Positions 3,754 to 35,536 of a stretch of DNA of 64,000 nt are shown here, piece by piece. The stretch is from Ideonella dechloratans (GTDB lineage: Bacteria; Pseudomonadota; Gammaproteobacteria; Burkholderiales; Burkholderiaceae_C). Each line of letters opens with the position of its first letter. The first letter of the stretch is position 1. Both the position numbers and the translations under genes were made by a program. The notes beneath the pieces are model-generated. The model was not told the DNA's origin. It saw nothing but the letters and a program-made list of their open reading frames with translations, and made no database searches. The stretch is taken from NCBI RefSeq assembly GCF_021049305.1, contig NZ_CP088082.1:558001-622000 (forward strand). The letters run 5' to 3'.

Positions 3754-3907
3754 ATGGCCCAGGTTCTGGTGGTCGACGATTCCAGCACGGTCCGCAACGA
3801 GGTCGCGGACTTTCTCCAACGCAATGGCCTGACGGTGAGCACCGCCGTGGACGGCAAGGACGGGCTGTCCAAGCTGCGCCTGGACAGCGGCATCAAGCTT
3901 GTCATCT
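3754..3907 (+). pseudogene. CheY-like response regulator, 3' part lost at the prophage junction
   Basis: The frame begins MAQVLVVDDSSTVRNEV, with the paired acidic residues of a receiver domain, and continues normally to IKLVI (about residue 51). In a CheY-like protein the next residues should contain the phosphorylated Asp (SDVxMPxMDG). Instead the frame reads WNIDFCSTMF and stays open to a stop at 4026, with no further receiver signature. The break is at about 3907, just before a 9-bp inverted repeat and the phage integrase. I read this as truncation by prophage integration. The phosphorylatable Asp and the second half of the domain are missing, so the product should be non-functional. Confidence 0.75.
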
Positions 3908-3937
3908 GGAACATTGATTTTTGCTCCACAATGTTCC
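3908..3937. other. Candidate left attachment core (inverted repeat at the host-phage junction)
   Basis: GGAACATTG (3908-3916) and CAATGTTCC (3929-3937) form a perfect 9-bp inverted repeat separated by 12 bases. It begins exactly where the cheY frame departs from its family consensus. Inverted 9-13 bp arms are typical of core-type sites for tyrosine recombinases, although the usual spacer is 6-8 bp. A further GTTCC copy follows at about 3943. The right attachment site is outside the window, so the core cannot be confirmed. Confidence 0.35.
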
Positions 3938-4096: not shown

Positions 4097-5395
4097 TTGG
4101 CAAAACTCACACATCTACTGTCCGACATCCAGATCAGAAATTGGGTATCCAAGGGCGCGGCCATCGCCCGCTCGGATGGCGACGGCCTGACCTTCACGCT
4201 GTCGGCCGCCGGAACCGCCACCTGGGTTCTGCGCTATCGCCTCGGCAAGGGTCGCCGCCGCGAACTCACTATCGGCAACTACCCCGACGTGTCCCTGTCC
4301 GCCGCCCGTGAGAAGGCCCGCGTCGCGCGCGTCGCCATCGACGAGGGACGCGACCCCGCCATCGAGAAGCAGGAAGAAAAGCGCCGCACGCAGGCTGCCT
4401 GGACGCTGCGCGAGCTGATCTCCGACTACCGGGAGAAGTGCCTACTGCCCACCGAGTTCGCCCAGGACACCATCGACTACCGGAACCGCGACTACGATCA
4501 GGTCATCATCCCGCGCCTGGGAGCGCGCCCGGTGCAGCGCATCACGCCCATCGACATCGTGGCGATGATCGAGGACTGCAACCGAACCTGGACGGTATCG
4601 AAGCGCATCCTCACCTCGGCATCCCAACTGTTCGACCACGCCTGCGGCCTGAAGATCATCGCCGCAAACCCTTGCACCGGGGTCAAACTGAAGGCTATCA
4701 AGGGGCCTCGCCCGCCTATCCGCAAGCGCGTCATGCTGCTGGAGGACGAACTGCGCGAACTGCTGCCCGACATCGACTTCATCGGCACCGAGAACGCGCT
4801 GGCCTTCCTCATCCTGCTGGCAACATGCGTGCGTGGCATCGAACTGGCGCGCGCCAAGAAGGAGCATATCTTCCTTGACCGTGGCATGTGGTGGGTGCCG
4901 GACGAGTCGGTAAAGACCCGCCGAGGCTTCCTGGTTCCGCTCACGCCCGTGGTGGTCGAGTGGTTCCGCGCCCTGTTCGAGCTGTCCGGGGAGTCCCGCT
5001 ACGTTCTGCCCGCACGCCAGGAGCGCCGCCGGCGTAACAAGGGCGGAGATACCCACGTCGGAGAAACGACCCTCTGGGCGGCCATCCGCCGCGCCTTCGA
5101 GCGGCACGACATTGAAATCCGCAAGTTCACGCCCCACGACACCCGCTCCACGGCCAAGGGCCACCTGCGCAACATGGGTGTGTCCTGGGAGGAATCGGAG
5201 GTGGCGCTAAACCACAAGCTGGGCGAATTGGACGACATCTACGACGTGCGCGAGGAACGGCCGGAGCGCCGCGAGGCGCTGGAGAAGTGGTGCGAGTTCA
5301 TCGTCGCCTGCAAGACCGGCGCGCCCACGCCGGCTTTCGTCAAGAAGACCCCGAACAACCTCATCCACCTGTTTTCACAGACCAAGGTCGCGTAG
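4097..5395 (+). CDS. int: Prophage tyrosine integrase (DUF4102 N-terminus)
   Basis: This 432-residue site-specific recombinase would integrate and excise the prophage. The N-terminal 90 residues match the DUF4102 arm-binding type (SDGDGLTFTLSAAG, then YRLGKGRRRELTIGNYPDVS). The catalytic domain shows the first Arg in CVRGIELARAKK, the HxxR box in HDTRSTAKGHLRNMG and a terminal Tyr in DDIYDV. Translation starts at TTG, chosen because GAAGGGAGG lies just upstream and no ATG fits. It is the only confident phage gene on the + strand and converges with the first reverse transcriptase gene, overlapping it by 21 bases. Confidence 0.92.
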   Translation: MAKLTHLLSDIQIRNWVSKGAAIARSDGDGLTFTLSAAGTATWVLRYRLGKGRRRELTIGNYPDVSLSAAREKARVARVAIDEGRDPAIEKQEEKRRTQAAWTLRELISDYREKCLLPTEFAQDTIDYRNRDYDQVIIPRLGARPVQRITPIDIVAMIEDCNRTWTVSKRILTSASQLFDHACGLKIIAANPCTGVKLKAIKGPRPPIRKRVMLLEDELRELLPDIDFIGTENALAFLILLATCVRGIELARAKKEHIFLDRGMWWVPDESVKTRRGFLVPLTPVVVEWFRALFELSGESRYVLPARQERRRRNKGGDTHVGETTLWAAIRRAFERHDIEIRKFTPHDTRSTAKGHLRNMGVSWEESEVALNHKLGELDDIYDVREERPERREALEKWCEFIVACKTGAPTPAFVKKTPNNLIHLFSQTKVA

Positions 5396-6448
5396 CGCAG
5401 CCTTCTCGGCTATGTCGCGCAGGCCAGGCACCAGCACCAAATCACCGAGCACGCCCTCGACCGTCCGCTGGGCGTTGCAGTGCTTGGCATAGGCCAAGAA
5501 GGACATCACCCGCTGGCGGACGTGCTCAAGATCGACCTCGCCGTGGTAGAACTGGCTCGCCAGCTCCCTGAAGTCGGCCCGCGCCCGCTTGATGTTCCTC
5601 TTGCGCGGCAGCACATGGGTGGGCCAGATGCGGTAGCCGCAAAAGTCCACGCCGCGCTGCCACGGGTGAATCGCCGTCTTCGGGTTGAGCGAGAGGCCCA
5701 GGGCATTGACGACCTTTCCAAGGGCCTGTAGCACGCGCTGCGCTTCGGCCTTGTCCTTCACCACCGCCACGAAGTCGTCCATGTACCGCACGTAGAAGCG
5801 CAGGCCCATATCGTCCTTGGCGATGTGATCGAGGCGGTTCAGCAGGACGTTAGCCCCGAGCTGGCTGGTCAGCGCGCCGACGGGTAGGCCCAGCCCGGCC
5901 TCGTGGCCGTAGCCGCTGATGATTTGCCGCCAGAGCCAGAGCACGTCGGGATCCGCAATGACGCGCTCCACCTCGTCCATGAGGATGTGATGCTGGATGC
6001 TGGCGAAATACTTGCTGATGTCCGCCTTCACCACGTAGATGCCGTCGCCCCAGTTCCGCTTCGCCACGCGCAAGAAGTGCTGCACGCGCGCCACGGCGGC
6101 CTGGGTTCCCTTACCCTCGCGGCAGGCGAACGAATCAGAAATGAACCGGCGCTCGAAGTGCGGGCCGACGACGGCCACCAGGGCGTGATGCACCACACGA
6201 TCAGCGAACGGCGGCGCCTGGATGGCGCGCAGCTTCGGTTCGCGCACGATGAACTCGCGCTGCGGGCCGGGCGTCCAGGTTTTCTCGATCATGGCCGCCT
6301 GGAGCGCAAAAAGGTTGTCTTCCAGGCTTTCGGAGAAGCGCAGCACGTCGGGCCGATACCGCTTGCTGCGGCGCGCCTCAAGGTAGGCGCGGTAGATGTT
6401 GTCGAACTGGGTGATGCTCGGCCATAGGCCGCTGATGGTCTTCGGCAT
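5375..6448 (-). CDS. DGR reverse transcriptase 1
   Basis: This 357-residue enzyme should copy template RNA from the neighbouring TR into mutated cDNA. It has the DGR-type motif LPVGALTSQ (SQ rather than the SP of group II introns), the catalytic box YVRYMDDF (about residue 222) and the upstream KADISKYFASI with the first catalytic Asp. The C-terminal thumb-like part (GYRIWPTHVLPRKRNIKR) matches the second RT in the window. No maturase, endonuclease or retron features are present. It is the last gene of the - strand operon, preceded by TR1 and Avd 1, and ends inside the 3' end of the integrase gene. The active-site residues look intact. Confidence 0.9.
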   Translation of the reverse strand: MPKTISGLWPSITQFDNIYRAYLEARRSKRYRPDVLRFSESLEDNLFALQAAMIEKTWTPGPQREFIVREPKLRAIQAPPFADRVVHHALVAVVGPHFERRFISDSFACREGKGTQAAVARVQHFLRVAKRNWGDGIYVVKADISKYFASIQHHILMDEVERVIADPDVLWLWRQIISGYGHEAGLGLPVGALTSQLGANVLLNRLDHIAKDDMGLRFYVRYMDDFVAVVKDKAEAQRVLQALGKVVNALGLSLNPKTAIHPWQRGVDFCGYRIWPTHVLPRKRNIKRARADFRELASQFYHGEVDLEHVRQRVMSFLAYAKHCNAQRTVEGVLGDLVLVPGLRDIAEKAALRDLGL

Positions 6449-6601
6449 GGGGTTCCTGTTGGGGGTGGTCGGGTGCCACCACGTTCGCCGGCGTGCCGGG
6501 TACTTGCCGTGACGCCCTGTTCATCTTCGACAGCATGGTCAGGACACAGGCCCCAAAGGAAATGCACTGGACGGTGGCCGCTTGAACCGCCCGCCTTCTG
6601 G

Positions 6602-6735
6602 CAATGTCGTTTGCGAGGCGGCCACCGATGTTGGAGTTCGAGAACTCCGCGTCGTTGTTGACGTTGAGATGGAAGGCGCCGGCGTTCTGGCCGTTGCCCC
6701 AATTGCCGCCGGAGTAAGCCTCTGCCCCATCGCTT
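6602..6735 (-). repeat. DGR template repeat TR1 (no matching variable repeat in the window)
   Basis: The 301 bases between Avd 1 and RT1 hold no credible gene. Read on the - strand, about 6735-6602 encode a peptide typical of DGR variable regions (GGNWGNGQNAGAF, then HLNVNNDAEFSNSNIGGR). It has nine AAY asparagine codons in about 35 codons, the feature that gives adenine-directed mutagenesis its targets. The position, between avd and RT, is the same as for TR2. I found no second copy in the window, so the ends are approximate. Bases 6449-6601 show nothing further that I can name. Confidence 0.7.
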
Positions 6736-6749
6736 GGGAGAGTGGCGCG

Positions 6750-7100
6750 CTACATGGCCTTGCCTCCCTCGTTCTTAATCCAGGCCCCTACCATGCGGCC
6801 TATCTCGTTCGTGTGCCGCATCCAGACTTCCAGCCGGTGCGTGTTGATGTAGCCCAGCCGGTGGGCCTTGCGGATGAGGCCCCGGAACACCTCGATTTCT
6901 ACGTCCAGGTCGAACAGCGCGGCGGACTTCTGCCTGCGCTTCCACGCCACCACGACCTGACGAATCACCCTGTTCATGGTGCCGCGCATCTCGGCGCACA
7001 GCAGATGCCGTTCGAGCTTGGGGAACTGGTGCAGCACCGTGTGGGTGTAGGCGTCCAATTCCTCCAATTTCGTCATCAGCACCAGGTGGGCGTCGCTCAT
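6750..7100 (-). CDS. avd: DGR accessory variability protein Avd 1
   Basis: The 116-residue product is an Avd-type four-helix protein, which binds the RT and template RNA in DGRs. Family marks are FPKLERHLLCAEMRGTMN, a charged helix with DLDVEIEVFRGLIRKAHRLG, and the C-terminal NEIGRMVGAW. It aligns by eye along its length with Avd 2 at 8454-8825. The ATG overlaps the stop of RT2 by 4 bases, so RT2 and Avd 1 are translationally coupled although they belong to different modules. TR1 follows directly. Its pairing with RT1 is inferred from gene order. Confidence 0.85.
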   Translation of the reverse strand: MSDAHLVLMTKLEELDAYTHTVLHQFPKLERHLLCAEMRGTMNRVIRQVVVAWKRRQKSAALFDLDVEIEVFRGLIRKAHRLGYINTHRLEVWMRHTNEIGRMVGAWIKNEGGKAM

Positions 7101-8161
7101 TGGGGCCGGCCCTCCCCGCGCGTGAAGGGGGTGCTGGCCAGCAGCTTGCGGCGCAGGCCGTAGGTTTCCGCATGGCTCGCGTGCGCTATCCACGACATGA
7201 CCGATTCCCTGATCTTCGAGAGGTCGATCTTGCCAGCCGCGTACTGCCTGCGCAGGCGCTTGAGCGTGCGGGTGATGCGCGAAATCGAGCTTTTCCTGAT
7301 GCGCCGGTGCGTCGTCCATATCCGGTAGCCCAGGAAATCCACAGCGCGGCCGAACCGCTCGCCGACGGGGAACACCTGGGTCTTGGAGTTCGTCTTGAGC
7401 CGCAGGCGCTCCCACAGGAACCGCTCGATCTGGGCGCGGATGCGGTGCAGGTGGGCCTTGTCGTGATGCACGATCAGGAAGTCATCCATGTAGCGCAGGT
7501 AGTTCTTCTCCCGCAGAACATGCTTCACGAACTCGTCCAGCTCGTTCAAATACACGTTGGCGAACAGTTGCGAGGTCAGGTTGCCGATGGGCAGGCCGAC
7601 GGGGTGCGGGTCGCCTGGCATGGCCGTCGAGTCGATGATGCCGTCTATCAGCTTCAGCGTGCGGCGGCATCGGATGCGCCGGCGCACCAGCGACTTCATC
7701 ACGCCGTGGTCGATGCTGTAGAAGAACTTGGAGATGTCGGCCTTGAGCACATACACATGGCTGTGCTCGCGCTTCACCTTGCGAAGCATGGCCTCGGCGC
7801 GGTCGGCGCCCTTGTGGGTTCCTTTGCCCGGCCGGCAGGCGTAGCTGTCGAAAATGAAGCGACGCTCCCAGATCGGTTCGATCACCGACACCAGCGAGTG
7901 CTGGAGCACGCGGTCGCGGAACGGCAGCGCGGCAACGAGGCGCTCCTTCGGCTCATTGACGATGAACTGGCGGTAGTGCCCCGTCTGGTACATGCCCCAG
8001 ATAAGCTCGTTCTGGAGCTGAATCAGGTTGCCTTCCAGGTCTTGCTCGAACTTCTGGACTTCGCGCCTCTCGCGCTTGCCGCGCCGGGCGAGCATGTAGG
8101 CCGCGTGAAGGGACTCGAAGCTGTAAATGTCCGGGTAGAGATTGTTGTACGTCTTCGCCAT
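7097..8161 (-). CDS. DGR reverse transcriptase 2
   Basis: This 354-residue RT is of the DGR class. It has KADISKFFYSI (first catalytic Asp), LPIGNLTSQLFANVYLNELD, YLRYMDDFLIV (about residue 223) and a thumb-like region with FLGYRIWTTHRRIRKSS. It resembles RT1 throughout but clearly differs from it. It lies directly downstream of TR2 and Avd 2, the standard avd-TR-RT order, so it is the likely enzyme behind the mutated variable repeat at 9509-9622. It overlaps Avd 1 by 4 bases. The catalytic residues are intact. Confidence 0.93.
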   Translation of the reverse strand: MAKTYNNLYPDIYSFESLHAAYMLARRGKRERREVQKFEQDLEGNLIQLQNELIWGMYQTGHYRQFIVNEPKERLVAALPFRDRVLQHSLVSVIEPIWERRFIFDSYACRPGKGTHKGADRAEAMLRKVKREHSHVYVLKADISKFFYSIDHGVMKSLVRRRIRCRRTLKLIDGIIDSTAMPGDPHPVGLPIGNLTSQLFANVYLNELDEFVKHVLREKNYLRYMDDFLIVHHDKAHLHRIRAQIERFLWERLRLKTNSKTQVFPVGERFGRAVDFLGYRIWTTHRRIRKSSISRITRTLKRLRRQYAAGKIDLSKIRESVMSWIAHASHAETYGLRRKLLASTPFTRGEGRPQ

Positions 8162-8336
8162 AAAAACCCAAGACCCCGAAGGGCGGCGGCTGCGAACGGT
8201 CGCCCAATCGGGCTACTGGTTCGGGCCGCCTGTTCAATCTTCCGGCTTCAGGTTTCCCGTGGCCGGGGGATGCGCGTCCTTTTGAGGGTGTGCTGCCGTC
8301 AGGCCCGTGAGCCTGCCGTTCCTGACTTTCCCCAAG

Positions 8337-8450
8337 AGCGGGGCGGGAGCCGATGTTCGTGTTCGTGTTCGACCGAGCGTTGTTCAGGTTCAGCGCGAAC
8401 ACGCCCGAGATGGCGGCGTTGTTCCAGTTGCCGCCACGGATCGCCAGCCG
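8337..8450 (-). repeat. DGR template repeat TR2
   Basis: This 114-bp segment aligns without gaps to 9509-9622, the 3' end of the fibre gene, with 15 differences. On the coding strand 14 of these are at template adenines (23 adenines in the repeat), and only one is at another base. Read in the frame of the target gene it encodes nine asparagines, and all nine are replaced in the variable copy. It begins 4 bases after the Avd 2 stop. The segment 8162-8336 between it and RT2 holds no gene and is probably part of the template RNA. Confidence 0.93.
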
Positions 8451-8453
8451 TTT

Positions 8454-8825
8454 TCAACGCGCACCCCCATTGCCGTCACCGGCAAATGCTTTGACCCAAC
8501 CGCCTACCATCCGGCCGATTTCGTCGTTCAGGCGTGACCAGTGCTCATACTTCTTGAAGTCGATGTAGCCCATGTTCTTCGCCATCCGCACCTGGGAGCG
8601 CAGCAGGTCGAGTTCAGCGTCCAAGTCCTGAAGCGTGGTCTTCTTGTGGTATCGCTTGTTGCACACCACGATCAACCGAAGCACCGCCCACATGGTGGCG
8701 CGAATCTCCGCGCCGAGGACATGCCGCTCCATCTTGGGAAACTGCCTGACGGCCGTGTGGCCGTACTCGATCATTGCTTCGCACCGCTGCCGAATCAGTA
8801 GGTCGTTCTGGACTGGCCGCGTCAC
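8454..8825 (-). CDS. avd: DGR accessory variability protein Avd 2
   Basis: This 123-residue Avd-type helical bundle should work with RT2. Characteristic stretches are RQFPKMERHVLGAEIRATM, TLQDLDAELDLLRSQVRMAK and LNDEIGRMVGGWVKAF. The start is taken as GTG at 8825, because GTGA overlaps the stop of the upstream membrane protein gene and gives the family's usual length (about 120 residues). An internal ATG at about 8774 would remove the first helix. The stop lies 4 bases before TR2, so avd and the template are packed end to end. Confidence 0.88.
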   Translation of the reverse strand: MTRPVQNDLLIRQRCEAMIEYGHTAVRQFPKMERHVLGAEIRATMWAVLRLIVVCNKRYHKKTTLQDLDAELDLLRSQVRMAKNMGYIDFKKYEHWSRLNDEIGRMVGGWVKAFAGDGNGGAR

Positions 8826-9415
8826 GCCTGCGCGGCCACCAGCCGCCAGTTGTTGCAGACGACCAGGCCATAGAAGCCGCACAGGCCCGCCGTGACGTGG
8901 GGCGTATAGACCCAATCCGGCGCCTGCACGCCCAGGCCGACGTAGAACGCCGCGAGAGCAACGACCTTCACGACCGCCAGCGCCGGCACCACGCCAATCC
9001 AGCTCATGGCCTTCGCCATGATGGGGTTCAGCTCGCGGCCGCCGCCGTCCAGCACGCGCACCGTGAGCACTGCATCGGCGACGTTCAGCAGCACCAGGGC
9101 GGCGAACAGCGCCACGAAGGGCACGCTCACGCCGAGGTGCCAGCCGAGGGCCACCAGCAGCGTCGCCGCGACGGGAAACGCCAGGTCGAGCTGGCTGTCG
9201 AGGCTCCACTTCCAGAGCTGGAACCCGGCCAGCGGGTTGAGCGTGCCGACGGTGCCGCCGGCGACGGCCAGCTTGCGCTCGAACTGCGCGTGCTCGCGGC
9301 CAAGGAAGAAGAAGACGCCAGCGGCGGCGCCAATCCACCAGTTGCCGGTGAGCACGCCCACCGCGATTTGCAGGAGCACGGCGTAGATGGCGTGCTCGAA
9401 GTTTGTTTCGTTCAT
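8822..9415 (-). CDS. Polytopic membrane protein inside the DGR cassette
   Basis: The 197-residue protein has about five hydrophobic segments (near residues 8-37, 75-95, 97-115, 140-160 and 170-190) and no signal for export of a soluble domain. The part LNVADAVLTVRVLDGGGRELNPIM resembles DUF5658-type membrane proteins. It lies between the diversified fibre gene and Avd 2 and overlaps Avd 2 by 4 bases, so it is translated with the DGR machinery. I do not know its function. A lysis, superinfection-exclusion or cargo role is possible; none is shown by the sequence. Confidence 0.7.
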   Translation of the reverse strand: MNETNFEHAIYAVLLQIAVGVLTGNWWIGAAAGVFFFLGREHAQFERKLAVAGGTVGTLNPLAGFQLWKWSLDSQLDLAFPVAATLLVALGWHLGVSVPFVALFAALVLLNVADAVLTVRVLDGGGRELNPIMAKAMSWIGVVPALAVVKVVALAAFYVGLGVQAPDWVYTPHVTAGLCGFYGLVVCNNWRLVAAQA

Positions 9416-9452
9416 CTTGGATTCCCTGAGCAGTTTTCTTGGAGAGGCCCGA

Positions 9453-9474
9453 GGGGTGGGCTATCGCCCACCCC
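9453..9474 (-). other. DGR target hairpin downstream of the variable repeat
   Basis: A perfect 9-bp stem (9453-9461 with 9466-9474) closes a 4-base loop that reads GATA on the coding strand. It lies 22 bases after the stop codon of the diversified gene. In the Bordetella phage DGR, a hairpin with a short GC-rich stem and a G(A/G)NA loop just after the variable repeat is needed for efficient homing, and this one fits in position, loop and stem. No T-run follows, so it is not a typical terminator. Confidence 0.75.
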
Positions 9475-9496
9475 ATCAGATGACACGCTCCAGATT

Positions 9497-10591
9497 TCAG
9501 AGCACAAAAGCGGGGCGGGAGCCGAGGCTCGTGCCCGTGTACGACCGAGCGTAGCTCAGGTACAGCGCGAACACGCCCGAGAGGGCGGCGCTGCCCCAGC
9601 TGCCGCCACGGGCCGCCAGCCGCTCGCCTTCCACGTTCAGGTAGAAGCCGTCGCCGCCCAGGCCCGTGCTTGCCACCGGGAACAGGCCGTACTTCTTCAG
9701 CACGGTCAGCGCAGCAGCCGAAACCGGGGTGGAGCCGGGGTTGGTCATGCCCTCGAAAGACTGGCCCGAGGTGCGCACCAGGGTGTAGTTCGCCGTGCCC
9801 GACGTGTTGTAGCGGACGGACTTCGGCGTGGTCGGCACGTAGTCGCCGCCGGCGATGCTGCCCGTGAAGGTCGGGTTGATGAGCAGTCCGGTATCGCCGT
9901 CGATGGCCTTCCAGGCCGAGGACGTGGCGCTCAGATCGGTAGCGTTCAGCGCAGCGTCGTTGTTGGCGATGACCTGGATTTCGCCCTGCACCACGCGCAG
10001 GCCCGGCGACCATTCCCAGATGTTGCCGCACAGGTCAGCGATTCCACCCACGCTGTTGTCGTGGCGCCAGCTCACCGGGCCGGAGCCGGTCAGCGTGCGG
10101 CCGGTGGCGCTCGTGTCGCCAGGCGTGCCGCCGTCAGCGCGACGGCCGGTTTCCCAGGTGGCATCGCTGGAGCGGCCGTAGTTGCTGTTGCCACGCGGCA
10201 TGTAGCCGTTCTTCCAGCACCACAGCGCCAGCGCCGTGAACTCGATGCTGCTGATGGCGTGCCAGCCGGGGCCGTTGGCGCGCGCCAGGTTGGCGAAGTA
10301 GTCGAAGTTCTGCGACACGGTGGGATCGACGCCCGGCAAGCTCAGGAACTCGCCGTTTTTGTTGATGCCCTGGTAGGTGCCGATGAACAGCTCGGACTTC
10401 TCGACGCCGCCGACGATGAACGCCGGATGCACGCCGGAACCCAGGCCCGCGTCGATGTCTTCCAAGTTGAACTTGGGGATGACGTTCATGTACGAGGGCT
10501 GACCGCTGGCGGTGTAAAGCACCGTGACTTTGCCGCCAGTGGCGGCCTCGACGGACGCGCGCAGGTCGTCCTTGACGAAGATGGAAGGCAT
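9497..10591 (-). CDS. DGR-diversified tail-fibre tip protein with FGE/C-type-lectin fold
   Basis: This 364-residue protein is probably the variable receptor-binding tip of the tail fibre. The second half carries marks of the formylglycine-generating-enzyme-like C-type lectin fold (HAISSIEFTALALWCWKNG, about 111-129; GGIADLCGNIWEW, 182-194). It ends in the variable repeat (GERLAARGGSW to GSRPAF). The first 60 residues look like a fibre-attachment region. It is the fourth gene of the tail-fibre block, downstream of the collar-like and fibre genes. Use as a receptor binder is inferred by analogy with Mtd and related DGR targets. Catalysis is not expected. Confidence 0.88.
   Translation of the reverse strand: MPSIFVKDDLRASVEAATGGKVTVLYTASGQPSYMNVIPKFNLEDIDAGLGSGVHPAFIVGGVEKSELFIGTYQGINKNGEFLSLPGVDPTVSQNFDYFANLARANGPGWHAISSIEFTALALWCWKNGYMPRGNSNYGRSSDATWETGRRADGGTPGDTSATGRTLTGSGPVSWRHDNSVGGIADLCGNIWEWSPGLRVVQGEIQVIANNDAALNATDLSATSSAWKAIDGDTGLLINPTFTGSIAGGDYVPTTPKSVRYNTSGTANYTLVRTSGQSFEGMTNPGSTPVSAAALTVLKKYGLFPVASTGLGGDGFYLNVEGERLAARGGSWGSAALSGVFALYLSYARSYTGTSLGSRPAFVL
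9509..9622 (-). repeat. DGR variable repeat (VR) of the fibre gene
   Basis: This is the counterpart of TR2, covering about residues 324-361 of the 364-residue fibre protein. The nine template asparagines have become S, G, S, Y, S, Y, Y, G and S, and three isoleucines encoded by ATC have become A, L and L. The G/C-rich end next to the stop (GGCTCCCGCCCCGCT on the coding strand) is unchanged, as expected for the site where homing begins. The tyrosine and serine replacements are typical of binding surfaces made by DGRs. Confidence 0.93.
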
Positions 10592-10633
10592 GTAGGTTTC
10601 TCCTGATGAATCGGTCGGGGTGGTGCCGCGCGC

Positions 10634-10960
10634 TTAGGCCGTGGGCCAGAGCGTAACGACGACGGCGTTCGGGTCGAGCGGCAGCGGCTCGCGCAGCTCG
10701 GTCGGCTGCTCGTCCTCGCCTTCGCCTTCGGCGGGGACGATGACCGTCTCGTAGCGGCGAGCCGGAATCTCGATCTGCGCCAGGTAGGCGCCGTTACCGC
10801 CTTCGCTGGGGCCGCCGATGTTCTGGCGGACTTCAACCGTCACGGCGATGTCCTGCTGGCGCTCGGCGCAGTCGATGGCGACGCCAGCGACGGTGACATT
10901 GGCGCCCGACACCGAGAAGTCGGCGACGGGCTGGCCGTCCTGCTTGAGGATGATTTGCAT
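10634..10960 (-). CDS. Small tail-fibre-associated protein, unknown function
   Basis: The 108-residue product begins MQIILKQDGQPVADFSVSG. It is rich in short beta-like segments with an acidic linker (EGEGEDEQPTE) and no membrane segment. I do not recognise a family. Its position between the fibre gene (10979-11896) and the DGR target gene, with gaps of 18 and 42 bases, suggests a fibre component, connector or assembly chaperone. AAAGGAGCAATCC precedes the ATG as a ribosome site. Confidence 0.65.
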   Translation of the reverse strand: MQIILKQDGQPVADFSVSGANVTVAGVAIDCAERQQDIAVTVEVRQNIGGPSEGGNGAYLAQIEIPARRYETVIVPAEGEGEDEQPTELREPLPLDPNAVVVTLWPTA

Positions 10961-10978
10961 GGTGGATTGCTCCTTTCC

Positions 10979-11896
10979 TTAGTTGTTGAGCTTGCTGGCG
11001 CGCCAGCGCAGAACCACGTTGTCGGCCGCGCTCGCCAGATAGACGGAGAACCCGTTGGTGGTGCGGCTGGCAACGACGATGTGCCGGCTGTCGCAGGGCG
11101 CGCCGTCGGCGGAAACCACGTCGAAGGACAGGCTGTAGTCGTTGGCGCCCAGCGTTTGCAGAGCGGGCGACACGCTGGCCGGACTGTTGAGCAGTTGCGG
11201 GAACTGCGCTTCGATGCGGCGAACGTCCGTCATCGCCACGCCCGTCAGATTCGGGTCAGTGGCATCAGTCGAGTTCGCCGGGATGGTCAGGTTGTAGATG
11301 ATGATGGCGCCGTCGGGCACGGTCGTGCCGATGGGCGTCACCGCCAGACGCCACAAGCCGTTCGCGTCTTGGAACAGGTAGGCATAGACCACCACGGAGC
11401 TGGAGCCGATGTTGCTGGGCACGGAGGCGGCGTTATTACCGTCCGACACGGAGTAGGCCCGGCCGTTGGCGAAACACACACCGCTGGTGATGTTCAGGTT
11501 GCGCGCCGCCGTGGTCGATTTCGACACCGAGCAACCCTTGACGATGCCCCGGTTCTTGATCGTGACGACGCCCTCCTGCTGGGCCTGTTCTCGCAGCGCG
11601 CGCACGCTGTAGTTCGCCAGTGCGGCCTGGTCGAGCGCGAACTTCAGCGCGGCGGCCGTGGCGTTTTGCATGTCCACCGAGGTCGCGCCGATGTTCGAGT
11701 CCATCTCGGTCAGGCGGGCGGCCAGGTTGGCCTTGCCACCACGGGCGTTGTTCAGCTCGGTTTCGCGGGCCGCCAGGCGCGACTCGTGATCGGCGAAATT
11801 TTCGTCGATTTCCTGGTAGCGGGTGTTCCACAGCGACGGGACGGCATCCGGCTCGTTGTTGGGAATCGGGGAAATGTTGGGATGGGGCAGTGCCAT
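10979..11896 (-). CDS. Tail fibre protein
   Basis: This 305-residue protein starts with a short Asn/Pro-rich attachment region (MALPHPNISPIPNNEPDAVP) and a heptad-like helical part (about residues 25-110), then a beta-rich body. The middle reads ITSGVCFANGRAYSVSDG and AYLFQDANGLWRLAVTPIG. Such N-terminal coiled coil plus beta body layouts are usual in trimeric phage fibres. It lies 14 bases downstream of the collar-like gene and upstream of the DGR target, so it may be the shaft that carries the variable tip. No peptidase or lyase motif is seen. Confidence 0.6.
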   Translation of the reverse strand: MALPHPNISPIPNNEPDAVPSLWNTRYQEIDENFADHESRLAARETELNNARGGKANLAARLTEMDSNIGATSVDMQNATAAALKFALDQAALANYSVRALREQAQQEGVVTIKNRGIVKGCSVSKSTTAARNLNITSGVCFANGRAYSVSDGNNAASVPSNIGSSSVVVYAYLFQDANGLWRLAVTPIGTTVPDGAIIIYNLTIPANSTDATDPNLTGVAMTDVRRIEAQFPQLLNSPASVSPALQTLGANDYSLSFDVVSADGAPCDSRHIVVASRTTNGFSVYLASAADNVVLRWRASKLNN

Positions 11897-17084: not shown

Positions 17085-20000
17085 CTATGCGCCCCCCAGC
17101 CCGCCGGTGGCAATGTGCGCGATACCGCGCTCGCGCAGGTCTTGGCCCACCTCGGCCGGCTGAGACACGACGGCAACGGGCTTGCGCGCATCAGCCCCGG
17201 CCATCGGCACGGCCACGGGCGGCGCGTCGGCGATGGGGGGCACCACGGGCGCCGCCGGCACAGTCGGCACGCTCACGGCGGCTACCACGGGCGCGGCCGG
17301 CGCCACGATGCCAACCGGGGCGGCCGGCGCGGAAACCTGGGCCAGCGCCGGCGCGGCGGGCGCGGTGACGCCCTCCGGCGCAGCGGCGGCGCGCGGCGGT
17401 GCCGGCTGCTGGGCACTGGCCGGGTTCTGCGGCGTGGCCTGGGCCACGGCCTGCACGCTCGGCGAACCTTCCGGGGAGCCGGGCTGCGCGGGCGCGCCGG
17501 CGGCAACCGGCGCGGGCTGCTCGCCAGCCAGAGCAAGCAGGCGTTCCTTCTCGGCCACGGCGCGTTTGGCCGTACCGGCGCGGACTGCTGCCGACGAGCT
17601 GGCAAAGAGCTTGTCGTTGTTGGCGATCTTGTAGTCTTGAACCGCCGCCACAATGTCCTGGTCGCTCATCGTGGCAACGTCACGTCCGGCCAGAGCCTTC
17701 TGGAACATACCGATGGCGCCGGTTCCCCGCTTCGCGTTCCCTGCCCCGAACTGCACGGACGACGACCAGACGGCATCCTGCACGGCGGCGCCGCGCTGCG
17801 ACAGGTCAATGCCAGCATCCTTCAGGCCCGACATGGCCGGGTCGTAGTGCGACGCCTGGATGAACGAGTGCTGCGCATCGCCGAACGACGGGTCGCTGTT
17901 CGCCAACGCCTTCCATTTCGCATCGAACTCCGGCGTGCCCGGCTTGAGGCCGGCGAACTGCTCGCCGTACTTGCTCGACGAGAGGAACTTCTGGAGCGTG
18001 CCGGCCGCCGACGAAAGCTGATAGGTGCCATAGGAAGCGCCGCCGAAGTCTCCCTTGCCGCTGGAAACCGTGCCCGCTCCACCCTTGCCGGACTCGAACA
18101 CCTTGCTCGTTTGGCCCAGCACCCAGTTTCCAGCCGCCTTCGCGCCTTCCCATGCCTTGACCGCGCCGCGCCCGACAGTCGTGTTCTCGGCCGCCCAGCT
18201 CGCGCCGCGCCCGACAGCATCGGCAGCCTGCGCGCCAAGCTCAACGGCCTTGTCCTTGATTTCTATTGCCTTATCGACGACGACCCGGCCGGCCCCAACT
18301 ACGGCATCACCTGCGGTAGTCGCTGCGTCGCTCACATACGACCACGCCTGCGCGGTGCCAGCCTTGATGTCGATGCCCGTCTTGTCCTTGATGAAGTCGT
18401 TGGCGCTGTCGGCCTGGACGCCGGCCCATTCCGCCACCTGGTTGCCAGCATCCTTCACGGACTGCCAGCCGGCCTCCAGCTTGGCGAGCGCGCCATCCCA
18501 AGCCGACTTCAGGGAATCCGTCATGTCCGCCCAGCCGGATTTCACCGATTCCCAGACACCCAGGGCCGCACCCTTGACTTCCTGCCATCCGTCCTTGACG
18601 AAGGCGACAGCGGTATCCCACGCCGCAGCGATCTTGCCGGGGATGTCGGCGGCGCGCAGGTCGGACACCCAGCCGCCCACGGTCGTCCCGATGATCTGGC
18701 CGGCCTGGTCGCCGAAGAACAGGCCCGCCGCGCCGCCGATGGCGCCGCCAATGGCCGCGCCCACCGGGCCGGCGAAGGCCCCCACCAGCGCGCCGAGCTT
18801 CGCGCCGGCGAACATGCCGCCCATCGTCCCGGCCAGGCCGCCCACCGCCTTCCCGGCGCGCTGGTCTTTCTCGCGCCGGGTCAGGGTGTCGTCCGTCTCC
18901 GAGTCGTAGATGTCGGTGGCCGCCCCGATGCCGCCCAGCAGCGCGCCGATGATCGGGATGCGGCGCAGCGCGCCACGACCCAGGCCCAGCAGGCCGCGCC
19001 CAGCGCCGGCGGCCATCCGGCCAGCCCCAGCCAGCAACCCACCGCCGCGCGCGAGCAGCCCGCCAGCGCTGGCAGCCAGCGCGCCGACGCCCGGAATCCG
19101 CTTCAGCAGGCCGCCCAGCATTCCCAGCAGCCCGCCGAACAGGCCGCCACCGCCGCCGGCTTCGGCGACTGGCTTTTCCTCGATGGCCTTCAGCCGCTTG
19201 GCGGCCACCTTGTTGAACAGGCCCTCATCCTTCCTGAAGCCGGTCAGCGAGCCGTAGATGCGGCGCAGCCAGCCTTCCTGCTTCTTCTGGCTGTCGCCGC
19301 CGGTCAGCAGCTCGTAGCCCCGCGCCATCGGCTGGGCCACCTCGTTGAACGCCTTGACCGTCGGGTCGGCTTCCTCCAGGCCGGCGCCCGATTCCTTGAA
19401 CGCGCCCACGATGCGGTCGCCCAGGGAGCGCAGCGCGCTTTCGTCCTGGCCGTCGCGCTCGCCATCGGTTGGGCCTCCGGCTCCAGCGCCGCGCCCACCG
19501 CCAGCGGCAGGCCGGGCAGCAGCAGCGCCGCGCACGAACCGGCCCCGGCTGTCGCGGCCCATCGGCTGCGCCGGCGCGGGCGTGACGGCCTGGCGCGTGG
19601 CGCGCAACTCGGCCACGGCGCGGGTGATGGCGGCGGCGCTCTCGGTGTCGCGGCGGGCGGCATTGCCGCCGGCGCCGCCGGTCTGCGGCACGGCAGGCGC
19701 GCGCAGCAGCACCGGAATCTGGCGCTCGCGTCGCGCGGCCTGGGCCGGCTGCCCGGTCAGGGCCTGGCGGGCCGGGACGGCCTGCGGATTCTGCGGCGCG
19801 CGCGCGGTGTCGGCACCCTGGCGCGCGTCCCGCGCCATCGGCTGGGCCACCTCGTTGAACGCCTTGACCGTCGGGTCGGCTTCCTCCAGGCCGGCGCCCG
19901 ATTCCTTGAACGCGCCCACGATGCGGTCGCCCAGGGAGCGCAGCGCGCTTTCGTCCTGGCCGTCGCGCTCGCCATCGGTTGGGCCTCCGGCTCCAGCGCC

Positions 20001-20597
20001 GCGCCCACCGCCAGCGGCAGGCCGGGCAGCAGCAGCGCCGCGCACGAACCGGCCCCGGCTGTCGCGGCCCATCGGCTGCGCCGGCGCGGGCGTGACGGCC
20101 TGGCGCGTGGCGCGCAACTCGGCCACGGCGCGGGTGATGGCGGCGGCGCTCTCGGTGTCGCGGCGGGCGGCATTGCCGCCGGCGCCGCCGGTCTGCGGCA
20201 CGGCAGGCGCGCGCAGCAGCACCGGAATCTGGCGCTCGCGTCGCGCGGCCTGGGCCGGCTGCCCGGTCAGGGCCTGGCGGGCCGGGACGGCCTGCGGATT
20301 CTGCGGCGCGCGCGCGGTGTCGGCACCCTGGCGCGCGTCCCGCGCCATCGGCTGGGCCACCTCGTTGAACGCCTTGACCGTCGGGTCGGCTTCCTCCAGG
20401 CCGGCGCCCCGGCCGGGCGTCGCGGGCACGCTGGCGCGCGCCTCGGGCGCGTCCCGGTTCAGCGCGCTTTCGATGCCGAGCACCGCTTGGCGAATCGCGC
20501 GCACGTCGTCGCGGATGGCGGCCCAGTCGGCAACCGCCTTGCTCAGGTCGATGGGGTCGCCTACCAGGAACCCCTGTGCGTCATGTTTCAGCGCCAT
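17085..20597 (-). CDS. Tape-measure-like tail protein with lysin-like C-terminal domain
   Basis: This 1170-residue protein has a low-complexity Ala/Arg/Gly N-terminal third (with a duplicated 170-residue unit), then a glycine-rich hydrophobic region (about 480-640). Trp-spaced helical repeats follow (VKDGWQEVKGAALGVWESVK, VKSGWADMTDSLKSAW, LEAGWQSVKDAGNQVAEWAG), as in tape measure proteins. Residues about 850-1030 resemble virion-associated peptidoglycan hydrolases (GDFGGASYGTYQLSSAAG, then DPSFGDAQHSFIQASHYDPA). The tail is Ala/Pro-rich. It probably sets tail length and opens the cell wall at infection. It overlaps the upstream gene by one base. The fused lysin role is inferred. Confidence 0.7.
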   Translation of the reverse strand: MALKHDAQGFLVGDPIDLSKAVADWAAIRDDVRAIRQAVLGIESALNRDAPEARASVPATPGRGAGLEEADPTVKAFNEVAQPMARDARQGADTARAPQNPQAVPARQALTGQPAQAARRERQIPVLLRAPAVPQTGGAGGNAARRDTESAAAITRAVAELRATRQAVTPAPAQPMGRDSRGRFVRGAAAARPAAGGGRGAGAGGPTDGERDGQDESALRSLGDRIVGAFKESGAGLEEADPTVKAFNEVAQPMARDARQGADTARAPQNPQAVPARQALTGQPAQAARRERQIPVLLRAPAVPQTGGAGGNAARRDTESAAAITRAVAELRATRQAVTPAPAQPMGRDSRGRFVRGAAAARPAAGGGRGAGAGGPTDGERDGQDESALRSLGDRIVGAFKESGAGLEEADPTVKAFNEVAQPMARGYELLTGGDSQKKQEGWLRRIYGSLTGFRKDEGLFNKVAAKRLKAIEEKPVAEAGGGGGLFGGLLGMLGGLLKRIPGVGALAASAGGLLARGGGLLAGAGRMAAGAGRGLLGLGRGALRRIPIIGALLGGIGAATDIYDSETDDTLTRREKDQRAGKAVGGLAGTMGGMFAGAKLGALVGAFAGPVGAAIGGAIGGAAGLFFGDQAGQIIGTTVGGWVSDLRAADIPGKIAAAWDTAVAFVKDGWQEVKGAALGVWESVKSGWADMTDSLKSAWDGALAKLEAGWQSVKDAGNQVAEWAGVQADSANDFIKDKTGIDIKAGTAQAWSYVSDAATTAGDAVVGAGRVVVDKAIEIKDKAVELGAQAADAVGRGASWAAENTTVGRGAVKAWEGAKAAGNWVLGQTSKVFESGKGGAGTVSSGKGDFGGASYGTYQLSSAAGTLQKFLSSSKYGEQFAGLKPGTPEFDAKWKALANSDPSFGDAQHSFIQASHYDPAMSGLKDAGIDLSQRGAAVQDAVWSSSVQFGAGNAKRGTGAIGMFQKALAGRDVATMSDQDIVAAVQDYKIANNDKLFASSSAAVRAGTAKRAVAEKERLLALAGEQPAPVAAGAPAQPGSPEGSPSVQAVAQATPQNPASAQQPAPPRAAAAPEGVTAPAAPALAQVSAPAAPVGIVAPAAPVVAAVSVPTVPAAPVVPPIADAPPVAVPMAGADARKPVAVVSQPAEVGQDLRERGIAHIATGGLGGA
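19321..20409 (-). repeat. 510-bp in-frame tandem duplication in the tape measure gene
   Basis: Bases 19321-19830 and 19831-20340 are identical as far as I can compare, and the first 69 bases recur a third time at 20341-20409. The unit is exactly 170 codons, so the frame is kept. The repeated protein segment begins GAGLEEADPTVKAFNEVAQP. Perfect identity means a very recent event or an assembly artefact. Confidence 0.85.
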
Positions 20598-24196: not shown

Positions 24197-27100
24197 TTAC
24201 AGGGAGCGGGTCGCGGCGGTCAGTTCGAGCTGATCGGCCGCCTGGGGATAGTTGGCGATGAGGTAGTCCCAGGTGGAACGGTACACGTTCCACGCCAGGG
24301 CATCCCCGTCCCACTTGTATTTGCCGAAGCCGGCCATGTTCGCGCACCGCCTGATGGTTTCCTTCCACACCTTGGTGTTGCCCCGGATGCCCACCACGTC
24401 CGACGGCGAAGGCCCGGCCGAACGGTCGTCACCGGCCACGACCTGGCGCACGGCGGCGGCGATAGCGGCCTTGAAGCCATACGGCAGGTAGTCGCTGGCC
24501 GGGTCTTTCTCCTGCCAGTCGAACCACGGCGAGGCCGCGCGCATGAACGCGGTGGCCTGTTCGATCACCTCCGGCTCGGTGCTGCCGGTCAGCGCCGCCT
24601 TCAGGTCATCCAGCGAAACCGTCTTCTCGATCTGCTTCTGCACCCAGAGGTCGAAGTCGTCGAGGTCGGCCACGGTCAGCTTCAGGCCGTTGGCCGTGGC
24701 GAACTCTCGCAGGGCGTCATGCCGAGCGGTGGAATCCTCGTTGCTGGCTCGGCGCGTCACCGGCGTGTCGCTGGGCACCACAAACTTCCCATCGTCGAAC
24801 GACCGGATGATGGCCTTCTGGGCATCGAAGATGCGGCGCTTCACTTCGGACTTGCCCGCGTCCGTCGGCGAGATAGCGAAGGGGAAATGCGGCTGCGGCA
24901 GCCGGTAATCGTGGGTGCTGTATGCCGCCAGGGCTTCCACCTTGCGGCGCTGCGCCACCTCGGGCACTACCGAGCTGAAGCCGTTTTCGACGGTGCCAGA
25001 GGCGTTGATGGTGTCCTCGATCTGGGCCGCGTCCGTCAGGCAGGCGTCGTAGCCGGCCGTGCCCTGGTAGAACCACTCGCCGGCCATGACGGCGGCCGTG
25101 TTCGCGGCCAGCGGGGTGCCGTCGAGGCTGCGGCCGAAGGCGCCAGGACGGCCGCTTTCCAGCTTCAGCACCGCCAAGCCGTCGGGCACGCGCACGAAGG
25201 TTCCGTGGATGAGCGGCTTGCCGTTGTAGATGATTCCCTCGCCGCGCGCGATGGCATCAGCCACGCCGGCTGGGTAGCCGCCGGACTCCCCGGCTTGACG
25301 CGCGAACGCGGCCTTGGCCTCGTCGATCATCGACCGGGCCATATCCACCTCGGCCTGCCATTCGTTGCCGATGGGGCCGCCCTCGATGACGTTCAGCCCG
25401 AAGGACGGATACGACCGGCCCAACAGCATGGATTCGATGTCGTCGTCCTTCTGCTTCTTCCCGCCGCGCACTGCGGCAAAGAAGCTGTCCAAGGTGGCCG
25501 GCTCCGAGGTCGAGCCGCCGGCGCGCCATTCCGTGCGGAACAGGGTTGCGGACTGCTCGATCTGCCGGCGCAGGCCGCCGACGCTCGCCATCAGCTCGGC
25601 CAGCAGGCTTTCGTTCTTGGCGACGGCGGTTGCCGTGGCCTTCGGATTGCTGATGCGGTCGCGCAGCTTCTCGGCCTGCTTCTCCAGCCCCCACAGGCCG
25701 ATGATCTTGCGGATGACGAAACTGGCCGCCGTCTGGTTGTCGTTCAGGAAGGCGTTTTGCTTGCGAATCGTGTCCAGGTTAATCATCTGCCGGTCGCGGT
25801 TGCTCGACGCGCGCGAGGCGGCTTCCTTGGCGGCGATGGTTTCCTGCATCCGGCGCATGGCGTCGGCGTCGCCCACCACGTCGATCAGGGCCTCCATCTG
25901 CTCCTTGGACAGCCCACCGGTGACGGCCACGCTGTCGGAGCCATTCACGTCCATGACCTGCCCAATCCAATCGGCCTTCTTGTTCACCATCGCCCGCTTG
26001 CTGGTGTCGAAAGTGCCGTCGGCGTCGTAGTAGTAGAGGCTCACGCGCGCGGTCAGGTTGCCCTGGCGCACGCCGCGCCCGTTGCGCTGCTCCAGGCTGT
26101 CCGGCGTCCAGCCGATGGTCAGGTGGTGGATGGCCTGGGTTCCCTTCTGGAGGTTGATGCCCACCTCGGCCTTCTCGTTGGCGATGACGGTCTGGTACTT
26201 GTTGTCCTCGCCGGTGCCGTTGAACCCATCCTGCACGGCCAGGATTTCGTCGGGCGTGTTGTTGGTGCGGCCCGTGATGATGGCGATGGCGGCCGACGGC
26301 ACGCCGGCGCGGCGGGTCAGCAGGCGCTTGATCTTGTTGTGCAGCGGCAGGATGTCGCAGAACACGATCTGCTTGACGATGGGCGAACGCTGGCCGTCGG
26401 CGTCGATGCCGCGCGGGCTGGCCTGCTCATGCTGGAAGTTTTCGAGCATGGCGGCCAGCTTCGGCGGCACGGACACGTCCAGATCAAGGCCCAATTTCTC
26501 CGCGATGGCCTCGAATGCGCTCTGCACGTCCGGGTCGATGGTGTCGATCACCACGCGGCCGCCGTCGATGGCCTTGGCGCGCACCTCGATCTTCAGCAAC
26601 TCGGTTTCGTTGCCGCCGGAATCCTTGACCGTCTTGTGGCCGACGATGGCCGCCTCGTCGGTCATGGGGCCGGGCCGAGGGCGTTCTTCCGTGAATTTCC
26701 GGGCGTTGAACTGCTCGATGGCCGCCTTGGCCTTGTCGGCCTGGGTGGGAAGGTAGCTGTAGAAGGTGGCGCGCTGGTCGAGTTCGGGGTCGGCGATCAG
26801 CAGCGTCATCTTGTTGATGAGGTTGAACGGGTGCCCGATGAGGTTCAGTTCCTCGCCGAAGTGCTGCGCCACCTGCGCGTAGGCTTCCGGGTCGCCACGG
26901 TTCGGCGACTTCTCCGAAATCTCGTCGATGGCGTAGCGGAACGCGCTCTTGTAGAGCTTCAGGCGCTCCACCACGTCGGGCGGCAGCGCCACGGGCGCGG
27001 CCTTTTCCTCGCGGTCGGGCACCTCGATCTGCTCGCCCACGTCCTCGGCGCTCTTGATCGTCGCCACCTCGCCGATGGCCTTGCGCAGCACGCCGACGTT

Positions 27101-30652: not shown

Positions 30653-31446
30653 GATCTTCCCTTTCCTTACGCGAGGCTGGAGGTGGCGGCCATCATGGCG
30701 GCCTGGTAAGCGGCCACGGCCTGCTCGAACAGGGCCGCCAGCTCGGCGTCGCTCTGGTTGCGGGTGTAGGCAGCCTCCAGGTCGTCGGCCAGCTCGGGCG
30801 CCAGGATGTCGGCCACCGTTCCGTCGATGACGGACTGGAACAGGGCGCGGTCGGCGGCCTTCTGCGGGTCGGCTTGGCCGTCGCCGGCGCCGCGCTTGGC
30901 GGCCTCGGCATCCGCCAGCGCGATAGCTGCGCCAACATCGGTCGTCCGGCCAATCTCGGTCGCCGCGCCCGTGATGCCGCCACTGAAGCCCACGGTCAGG
31001 CGCACGATGAACCCGTCTTCAGTCACCCGGACGTTGAACTGGAGCTTCTTGTCGTCGGCCTGCACCGCGCGCACGTAGTCGTTGTTCAGCACGCGACGGA
31101 AGCCAGCGGCGATCAGCTCGGGCACGTCCGGCGTGGTATCTGGCGGCGCGCCCAGGCCAAGCTCCTGCTCAACCTCGCGCAGCTTGCTGCGGAGCACGCC
31201 CTCCGCTTTGTCGTGGTCGTAGCTCTTGAACTGCTGCGGCGTGAGGGTATCCACGAACAGCGACAGGATGCGGTCGGACTCGATGGCCGTCTCAGCATTC
31301 CCTTCGTGCTTCGCCGCAAGAACCGAGTCGTGCAAGTGTTTCAGGACATTCATCTCCGTGATAACGGAGGGGTCGAACATCCTGCTGTAATCAACCTCAT
31401 CTACGCCGGGTTCGGGCTGGCCGCCGGCGGGGCCGCCTTCGGCTGC
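30422..31446. repeat. 43-bp identical segment shared by the two giant genes
   Basis: Bases 30422-30464 and 31404-31446 are identical and have the same orientation. They lie in the Pro/Gly-rich linkers of the two polyvalent genes but are read in different frames (SQPKAAPPAAS in one, EGGPAGGQPEPG in the other). This suggests DNA-level recombination between linkers rather than protein selection. Confidence 0.7.
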
Positions 31447-35487: not shown

Positions 35488-35494
35488 GCAGGGC

Positions 35495-35536
35495 ATGGTA
35501 TGGCCCGGCCTGGAGCGGAAATCGGGGCGTTTTCCG
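35495..35536 (-). promoter_or_regulatory. Late promoter copy 4 (polyvalent protein unit)
   Basis: CGGAAAA (35536-35530) is followed at the common spacing by TACCAT (35500-35495). The predicted start of transcription (about 35488) is one base before the ATG of the polyvalent gene. Confidence 0.72.

Follow-up and report, generated by a model that had tools for sequence, protein, structure and literature searches.

Diversity-generating retroelements (DGRs) are usually described with one reverse transcriptase (RT) that serves one or several targets. An accessory Avd protein is common in these systems, but it is not universal. In Bordetella phage BPP-1 (mtd, avd, TR, brt), the genes follow the order target, small gene in the place of Avd, template repeat (TR) and RT; the target is a stand-alone gene with the variable repeat (VR) at its end, and a hairpin with a GRNA loop follows it (PMC3240598). 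In the Quimbyvirus DGR, a second target lies distal to the structural genes on the opposite strand (PMC8008677). The locus studied here is located in a stretch of 64,000 nucleotides of Ideonella dechloratans (contig NZ_CP088082.1; C2:558001-622000), referred to as the window. It shares the gene order, the stand-alone target and the GRNA hairpin with BPP-1, and a second target in an opposite-strand position with Quimbyvirus. Whereas BPP-1 has one RT, one TR and one VR, two full sets are present here, together with a distant second target bearing another hairpin loop. Most probably, a single 83-kb prophage carries two mutagenic retroelements, side by side and separate.

By analogy with known DGRs, both modules would operate by the same copying mechanism. 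In module 2 (RT2, Avd2 and TR2), the TR2 RNA would be copied with errors at adenines and the resulting complementary DNA would replace VR2 in VP-A, the adjacent target, a protein of the tail region. In module 1 (RT1, Avd1 and TR1), TR1 would likewise rewrite VR1 of the remote target VP-R, on the other arm and strand of the prophage. The separation would be ensured by the sequence match of each TR with its VR, and perhaps also by different recipient hairpins.

Two tandem modules and their cognate targets

Both modules are arranged in tandem on the minus strand beside the prophage integrase (4097..5395, plus strand; PHROG 1, E-value 1e-49) and all their frames are open. The minus-strand order is VP-A (9497..10591, 364 residues; PHROG 2889, E 1e-133), a membrane-type gene (8822..9415; DUF5658, PHROG 1443), Avd2 (8454..8825, 123 residues), the TR2 core (8337..8445), RT2 (7097..8161, 354 residues), Avd1 (6750..7100, 116 residues), the TR1 core (6612..6711) and RT1 (5375..6448, 357 residues). 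Both RTs contain YMDD and TSQ motifs. Spacer RNAs extend from TR2 to RT2 (8162..8336) and from TR1 to RT1 (6449..6611), on the same strand. RT2 and Avd1 overlap by the four bases ATGA. The membrane-type gene, lodged inside the module 2 cassette, shares the four bases GTGA with Avd2. A search of positions 5000-11000 against Rfam at E-values up to 1 found no family. The original prediction, which had described this order on a single strand with two RTs, two Avds, two TRs, 4-base overlaps and an integrase neighbour, is confirmed, and the frameshift that would have told against it occurs in neither module.

The two templates lead to two different targets. Apart from itself, TR2 strongly matches only one place in the whole genome, VR2 at the 3' end of VP-A (core 9509..9617, minus strand; E 2e-34). 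TR1 also has a single strong match besides itself, at C2:629231-629341 (E 3e-33). The next-best matches of TR1 and TR2 are stretches of at most 40 bases with E-values of 0.2 and 8e-5. TR1 has no pairing partner inside the window: its match lies 7.2 kb beyond the end of the window and forms the 3' end of VP-R. VP-R is a C-lectin-like protein of 325 residues encoded on the plus strand at C2:628371-629348 (L009:10371-11348 in the adjoining stretch beyond the window end), with the VR1 core at C2:629240-629339. In the 100-base core, TR1 and VR1 differ at 11 of 22 template adenines and at none of the 78 other bases, and TR2 and VR2 differ at 14 of 23 template adenines and 1 of 86 other bases. Non-adenine positions match at 78/78 and 85/86 in the cognate pairs, against 55/78 and 56/77 in the cross pairs. 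TR1 and TR2, proposed as template-like segments from their composition, are real templates, and judged by sequence the two TR/VR pairs are not interchangeable. Of the two possibilities initially considered, two targets or a single shared one, the first holds, with one target per TR and each VR varying at template adenines, and the shared target is abandoned. The second target itself had been missed, given its position outside the window.

VP-R belongs to the same prophage as module 1, on the opposite strand and in the other arm. The attL core (3895..3908, strand not assigned) lies inside a CheY-like gene and the attR core is at C2:645020-645033; the cores are 14 bp long, with one base different between them. 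Joining of the prophage flanks restores an intact CheY-like frame of 123 residues. The prophage so delimited is 83,125 bp long, and its att sites, integrase and restorable integration site are those of a temperate prophage. The distance from TR1 to VR1 is 64.6 kb within the prophage and 18.5 kb across the joined ends. An earlier att candidate, a 15-bp repeat, was rejected as it is located inside the prophage, and the CheY-like cores make a better boundary.

The adenine-limited variation is also found among close relatives. In six VP-R sequences (five distinct), variation affects 21 of the 22 VR sites that correspond to a template adenine, against 5 of the 83 remaining VR sites and 36 of 860 in the rest of the gene. 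For five VP-A sequences (four distinct), the corresponding counts are 20/25, 1/93 and 103/974. One strain is present twice in both sets. Fisher tests of adenine against non-adenine sites within the VR give 2e-16 for VP-R and 5e-17 for VP-A, relatedness not being corrected for. The templates are nearly constant: in L012, L013, L014 and L044, TR2 is identical to that of the window and TR1 carries at most one difference in its 100 bases, and in the more distant L015 and L045, TR2 is the same at 83/109 positions and TR1 at 86/100. Since the TRs are nearly constant while both VRs vary at template adenines, both systems were probably at work recently. This combination is an indirect signal of mutagenic homing, and as such it speaks of past activity, not of present activity.

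Ancestry and relatives of the double form

The two RTs and the two Avds belong to DGR families, as anticipated by the original prediction and contrary to the placement of RT1 or Avd1 elsewhere that would have spoken against it. Both Avds score above the 80-bit cut-off of NF033474 'diversity-generating retroelement protein Avd' (Avd1 96.3 bits, Avd2 118.8 bits) and match PF22296 bAvd (114.3 bits for Avd2). The RTs match PHROG 1423 'Reverse transcriptase' (RT1 1e-124, RT2 2e-146), and the best solved-structure match of both is the 328-residue RT of PDB 8ub7 (RT1 2e-50, RT2 2e-65), which we take to be the BPP-1 complex. A TIGR04416 search of the genome found RT1 and RT2 as its only RTs. RT matches from a padloc search were considered as defence RTs and this reading was discarded, the matches reflecting general RT similarity with scores below those of PHROG 1423; Avd1, Avd2, the membrane-type gene and VP-A had no padloc match.

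RT1 and RT2 have separate ancestries. In a tree of 124 RT rows, RT1 falls in a clade of 74 rows and RT2 in a separate clade of 16 rows, with Shimodaira-Hasegawa-like approximate likelihood ratio test (SH-aLRT) supports of 99 and 96. BPP-1 Brt and the RTs of further cassettes with a TR/VR pair group with both, in a tree built without a non-DGR outgroup. Segments shorter than about 250 residues were not collected, and removal of identical rows brought the 162 obtained down to 138; rows below 290 residues were then dropped, with the RT1 of L072 as the only exception, and 12 distant loci were also excluded. RT1 and RT2 are 43% identical, Avd1 and Avd2 45%. Because the RTs are this divergent and fall in separate supported clades, the tandem is not a recent duplication. 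Compared with L012, RT1 of the window is 90% identical, and RT2, Avd1, Avd2 and the membrane-type gene are 99-100% identical; the divergence of RT1 is a sign of recombination at this gene.

The double cassette was searched for among RT1 relatives, comprising 32 loci in genome contigs and 75 in viral contigs; the search patterns came from one protein and distant kin are missed. Counting only RT matches longer than 250 residues, 7 of the 107 loci have tandem RTs, 80 have one RT with at least 2.3 kb of upstream sequence and 20 are undecidable. Two of the tandem loci, L014 and L044, share 12,028 bases without a single difference, so that the seven represent six distinct prophages: Pigmentiphaga NML080357, Burkholderia LMG 13014, Pseudothauera nasutitermitis, Pigmentiphaga humi and two IMG/VR records. 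Nothing was found in favor of an assembly artefact or of a tandem duplication as the source of the double cassette, and the chance of either is virtually nil: the RT tree rules out the duplication, with RT1 and RT2 in different clades, and the artefact is refuted by the six further prophages from separate assemblies, which show the same order. The search for other genomes with the same double cassette, suggested by the original prediction, is thereby answered in the affirmative. The double form is nevertheless rare in the genomes sampled. An RT2-like match at 1e-30 was found in 10 of 149 relatives (own genome included) and 14 of 369 genomes of the class, and an RT1 match in 16 of 399 genomes of the order; two RT matches within 5 kb occurred in the own genome alone in these three samples, which overlap and in which only five first-look candidates were scored for some genomes.

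In all seven tandem loci, TR2 has an adjacent VR, and the TR1 region is without a VR in the stretch covered (in L072, this region has no TR1). VP-R was searched for in 20 genomes or records. A match was present in 20/20 and a full-length remote copy in 16, the others being G005, G010, G013 and G019, some of them fragments. The VR of VP-R fits the TR1 of its own genome (at most 3 non-adenine mismatches in 60 bases) in 14 of the 16, the misses being G006 and G007. The VP-R gene and the cassette are on the same contig in G004 and on different contigs in the draft genomes G001-G003. Single-RT phages account for nine of the 14 (G008, G009, G011, G012, G014-G018), and their TR1 is also paired with an adjacent fibre. 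One RT therefore faces two targets in these phages. Conversely, RT2-type cassettes stand alone with VP-A-like targets in L152, L154 and L155.

A single-RT prophage, L016, whose integrase is 89% identical to that of the window, illustrates how the two forms may be related. Its 884-residue fibre resembles, near the N-terminus, a 305-residue protein of the window (10979..11896, minus strand; 51% over 91 residues), which has no PHROG match and matches the base of this longer fibre. The C-terminus of the fibre is 51% identical to VP-R over 336 residues, and DNA similarity between L016 and the window picks up again on either side of the fibre/module 2 region. The distal fibre and the following gene therefore occupy the place of the module 2 cassette. 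We infer that the single-RT form is the older one. The ancestor would have had a single RT1 cassette serving the distal fibre and VP-R; an RT2 cassette with its own target would then have replaced the distal fibre, leaving RT1 with VP-R. A second origin of the double form is probable in L072: its RT1, a fragment row, groups with other single-RT phages (SH-aLRT 99). The RT2 of L072 sits outside the 16-row RT2 clade.

Recipient hairpins and the proposed separation of the modules

Guo et al. 2011 (PMC3240598) describe, as a consensus in phage DGRs, GC-rich hairpins that follow the VR and have GRNA loops of 4 nucleotides, and show for BPP-1 that changes in the loop impair homing. Such a hairpin, GGGGTGGGC-GATA-GCCCACCCC, is present downstream of VR2 at VP-A (9453..9474, minus strand), and VP-R carries instead a conserved hairpin with a C(G/A)A loop, hereafter CRA, formed of a GC stem and this loop, or of CC(G/A)AG with the last pair open. 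Counting near-duplicates, the GRNA hairpin follows 18 of 19 targets of the RT2 type (VP-A-type) and none of 34 targets of the RT1 type (VP-R and long fibres), and the CRA hairpin follows 32 of the 34 and none of the 19. In random windows of 70 nucleotides, the GRNA and CRA classes occur at 0.4% and 0.5%. No hairpin of either class follows TR1 or TR2. A loose scan (stem of at least 6 with G-T pairs, loop of 3-8) did not discriminate, stems of at least 8 being present in 22% of random windows, and strict and loop-typed scans took its place.

The loop classes were tested on 41 further loci, by seeking a stop codon up to 120 bases past the target match (none in L107, at 72 in L100 and at 33 in L023 and L074). 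Outside the RT1 clade, 11 of 12 loci had GRNA and none had CRA. Four loci mix target and loop types, with a VP-A-like target bearing CRA in L024 and VP-R-like targets bearing GRNA in L078, L080 and L081; the loop class therefore does not track the family of the target. The loop labels (26 CRA and 26 GRNA) were also placed on a tree of 65 RTs, from which the RT1 of L072 was left out for its length; they need 2 changes, against a mean of 17.6 for shuffled labels. The CRA label of L047, L058 and L061 was at first taken over from near-identical partners, and later testing confirmed it for all three. All CRA rows are in one clade of 28 (support 100/97), which also holds L078 and L081 (GRNA; the pair at 100/100). 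The placement of these two in the clade is weak (89/61), hence one loss or two gains are both possible.

Consensus folds were obtained for both spacer RNAs, window included. The module 2 spacer (15 sequences) has 33 pairs, 16 of them with kept double changes, and the module 1 spacer (25 sequences) has 37 pairs, 17 with kept double changes; both counts were made without a shuffle control. The second alignment of the spacers excludes L070.

Several observations weigh against two separate working systems. Expression and activity of both modules are predictions from the DNA. VP-A also varies beyond its VR (103/974), which slightly weakens the case. Two of the seven distinct prophages with the double cassette lack an intact TR1/VP-R pair: in G006, TR1 and VP-R match at 69/80 non-adenine positions only, and in G007 (L072), a deletion joins a truncated Avd1 to a truncated RT1 and no TR1 is left. 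On the side of the hairpins, the 29 further loci inside the wider RT1 clade include 4 with GRNA, 5 with CRA and 20 with neither, and the loop classes were defined after seeing the strict-hairpin list; being post hoc, they are more fairly tested by the 41-locus scan and the 65-RT tree. Lastly, short motifs are common to both spacer RNAs by eye, so that either enzyme may use the RNA of the other module.

Part of this evidence could be read as meaning that one module works now, the other being a relic kept by linkage with a frozen VR. Survival of one module does occur, as L072 has a broken module 1 region with TR2 and VR2 intact, and the mismatched VP-R of G006 points the same way. Yet the frames of the window are all open, and in relatives with near-constant TRs each VR shows changes at template adenines, a record of past activity, which makes the relic very unlikely. 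Slightly less improbable, but still unlikely, are two interchangeable RT-Avd sets able to use either TR, the second copy only raising the dose. The homology of the RTs (43%) and Avds (45%) and the common spacer motifs would allow it; the separate ancestry, the strict TR/VR matching and the different recipient hairpins argue indirectly against it. Two separate retroelements remain the preferred explanation, in which the enzymes and hairpins of one module would not cross-react with those of the other.

VP-A would be a tail receptor-binding protein, and a binding partner is likewise presumed for VP-R. In the model of the L182 protein, 96% identical to VP-R (predicted local distance difference test score, pLDDT, 83; predicted template modelling score, pTM, 0.88), the VR lies in what appears to be a C-lectin-type ligand-binding domain. 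The best match of the model is TaqVP (E 3e-14), followed by Mtd variants and a Treponema variable protein at about 1e-3. VP-A was assigned to this type from its sequence, through PHROG 2889 and its similarity to VP-R (E 2e-10). There is an even chance that VP-R is a second virion receptor-binding protein and that both modules serve host recognition, a proposal that concerns VP-R only and is compatible with two separate retroelements. It is favored by the likeness of VP-R to a stand-alone form of the fibre C-terminal domain (51% over 336 residues), by its match to PHROG 5302 'tail protein', by the resemblance of its relative's model to DGR variable proteins, TaqVP first and Mtd weakly, and by the fact that Mtd and VP-A are stand-alone genes too. 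Against it, weakly, VP-R belongs to the other transcription arm, on the far side of a Cro/YdaS-like regulator of the minus strand and away from the tail genes beside the cassette. In 11 VP-R neighbourhoods, RecT or YqaJ is downstream on the same strand in 5, YqaJ is upstream in 2 and neither is found in 4, of which some are truncated. A bolder proposal, which we regard as doubtful, is that of two insulated hypermutation channels whose hairpins co-evolved with the RT lineages, one for the virion tail and the other for a non-virion protein of the early/lysogenic arm, perhaps meeting host defences or competing phages.

At least 220 proteins match VP-R at 1e-10. Among the first 54 of the 120 listed, 53 are 315-331 residues long; the stand-alone form is therefore common. 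Where these entries bear a name, it is 'hypothetical protein'. In phage records, 3 of 50,697 match VP-R at E-values up to 1e-5 with 25-29% identity, and no close VP-R is among them. In Gulbenkiania mobilis (G012; L124, L020), VP-R is 91% identical to that of the window and RT1 74%. This difference suggests that VP-R is exchanged between phages independently of its DGR.

Other genes of the prophage were noted in passing. An IS21-like istA/istB pair, named by eye (window 62425-63969 and L009:2425-4743), lies inside the prophage flanked by minus-strand early genes and may be polar on the genes behind. A tape-measure-like protein of 1170 residues (17085-20597) contains an exact direct repeat with a period of 170 residues, 193 residues being identical. 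Two giant proteins of 2151 and 1609 residues, within 24197-35496, are reminiscent of DarB/DdrB antirestriction proteins.

Comparison with known systems

In this lineage, a single RT with two targets seems to have given way to a pair of RTs, each with its own target, and L072 indicates that this probably happened more than once. The double form is a natural test of how a template chooses its site, and the C(G/A)A hairpin class is a concrete candidate for target choice besides the GRNA loop. As the remote position of VP-R shows, such systems are covered only in part when a survey looks at short contigs around the RT, a limit stated by Roux et al. for their own survey (PMC8144416).

In the open-licence literature, as covered by titles, abstract starts and passages, no description of a phage with two RT modules in tandem was found, and the available passages of PMC11792537, PMC4159848, PMC12135933 and PMC10053308 contain none. 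More than one DGR or TR per genome is found in Bacteroides sp. 1_1_14 (PMC3521204) and Nostoc PCC 7120 (PMC7517822), and Stenotrophomonas SKA14 has two TRs and six VRs (PMC6642488); unlike the present case, two complete tandem RT modules in one phage are not described in the available passages on these three. In the phage DGRs nd4 and nd12 with tentaclins, two different C-lectin proteins are also diversified in one phage, but with one TR and with both targets within the cassette (PMC10743442). Cyanobacterial remote variable proteins likewise have a VR far from the RT, although they are chromosomal paralogues of the cassette's own target (PMC7517822). Thermus aquaticus TaqVP (PDB 5vf4), structurally the closest to the VP-R model (E 3e-14), shares only 18% identity with it. 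The nearest precedent is the Quimbyvirus DGR, where one RT serves both targets, as in the single-RT relatives described here and in contrast to the double form (PMC8008677).

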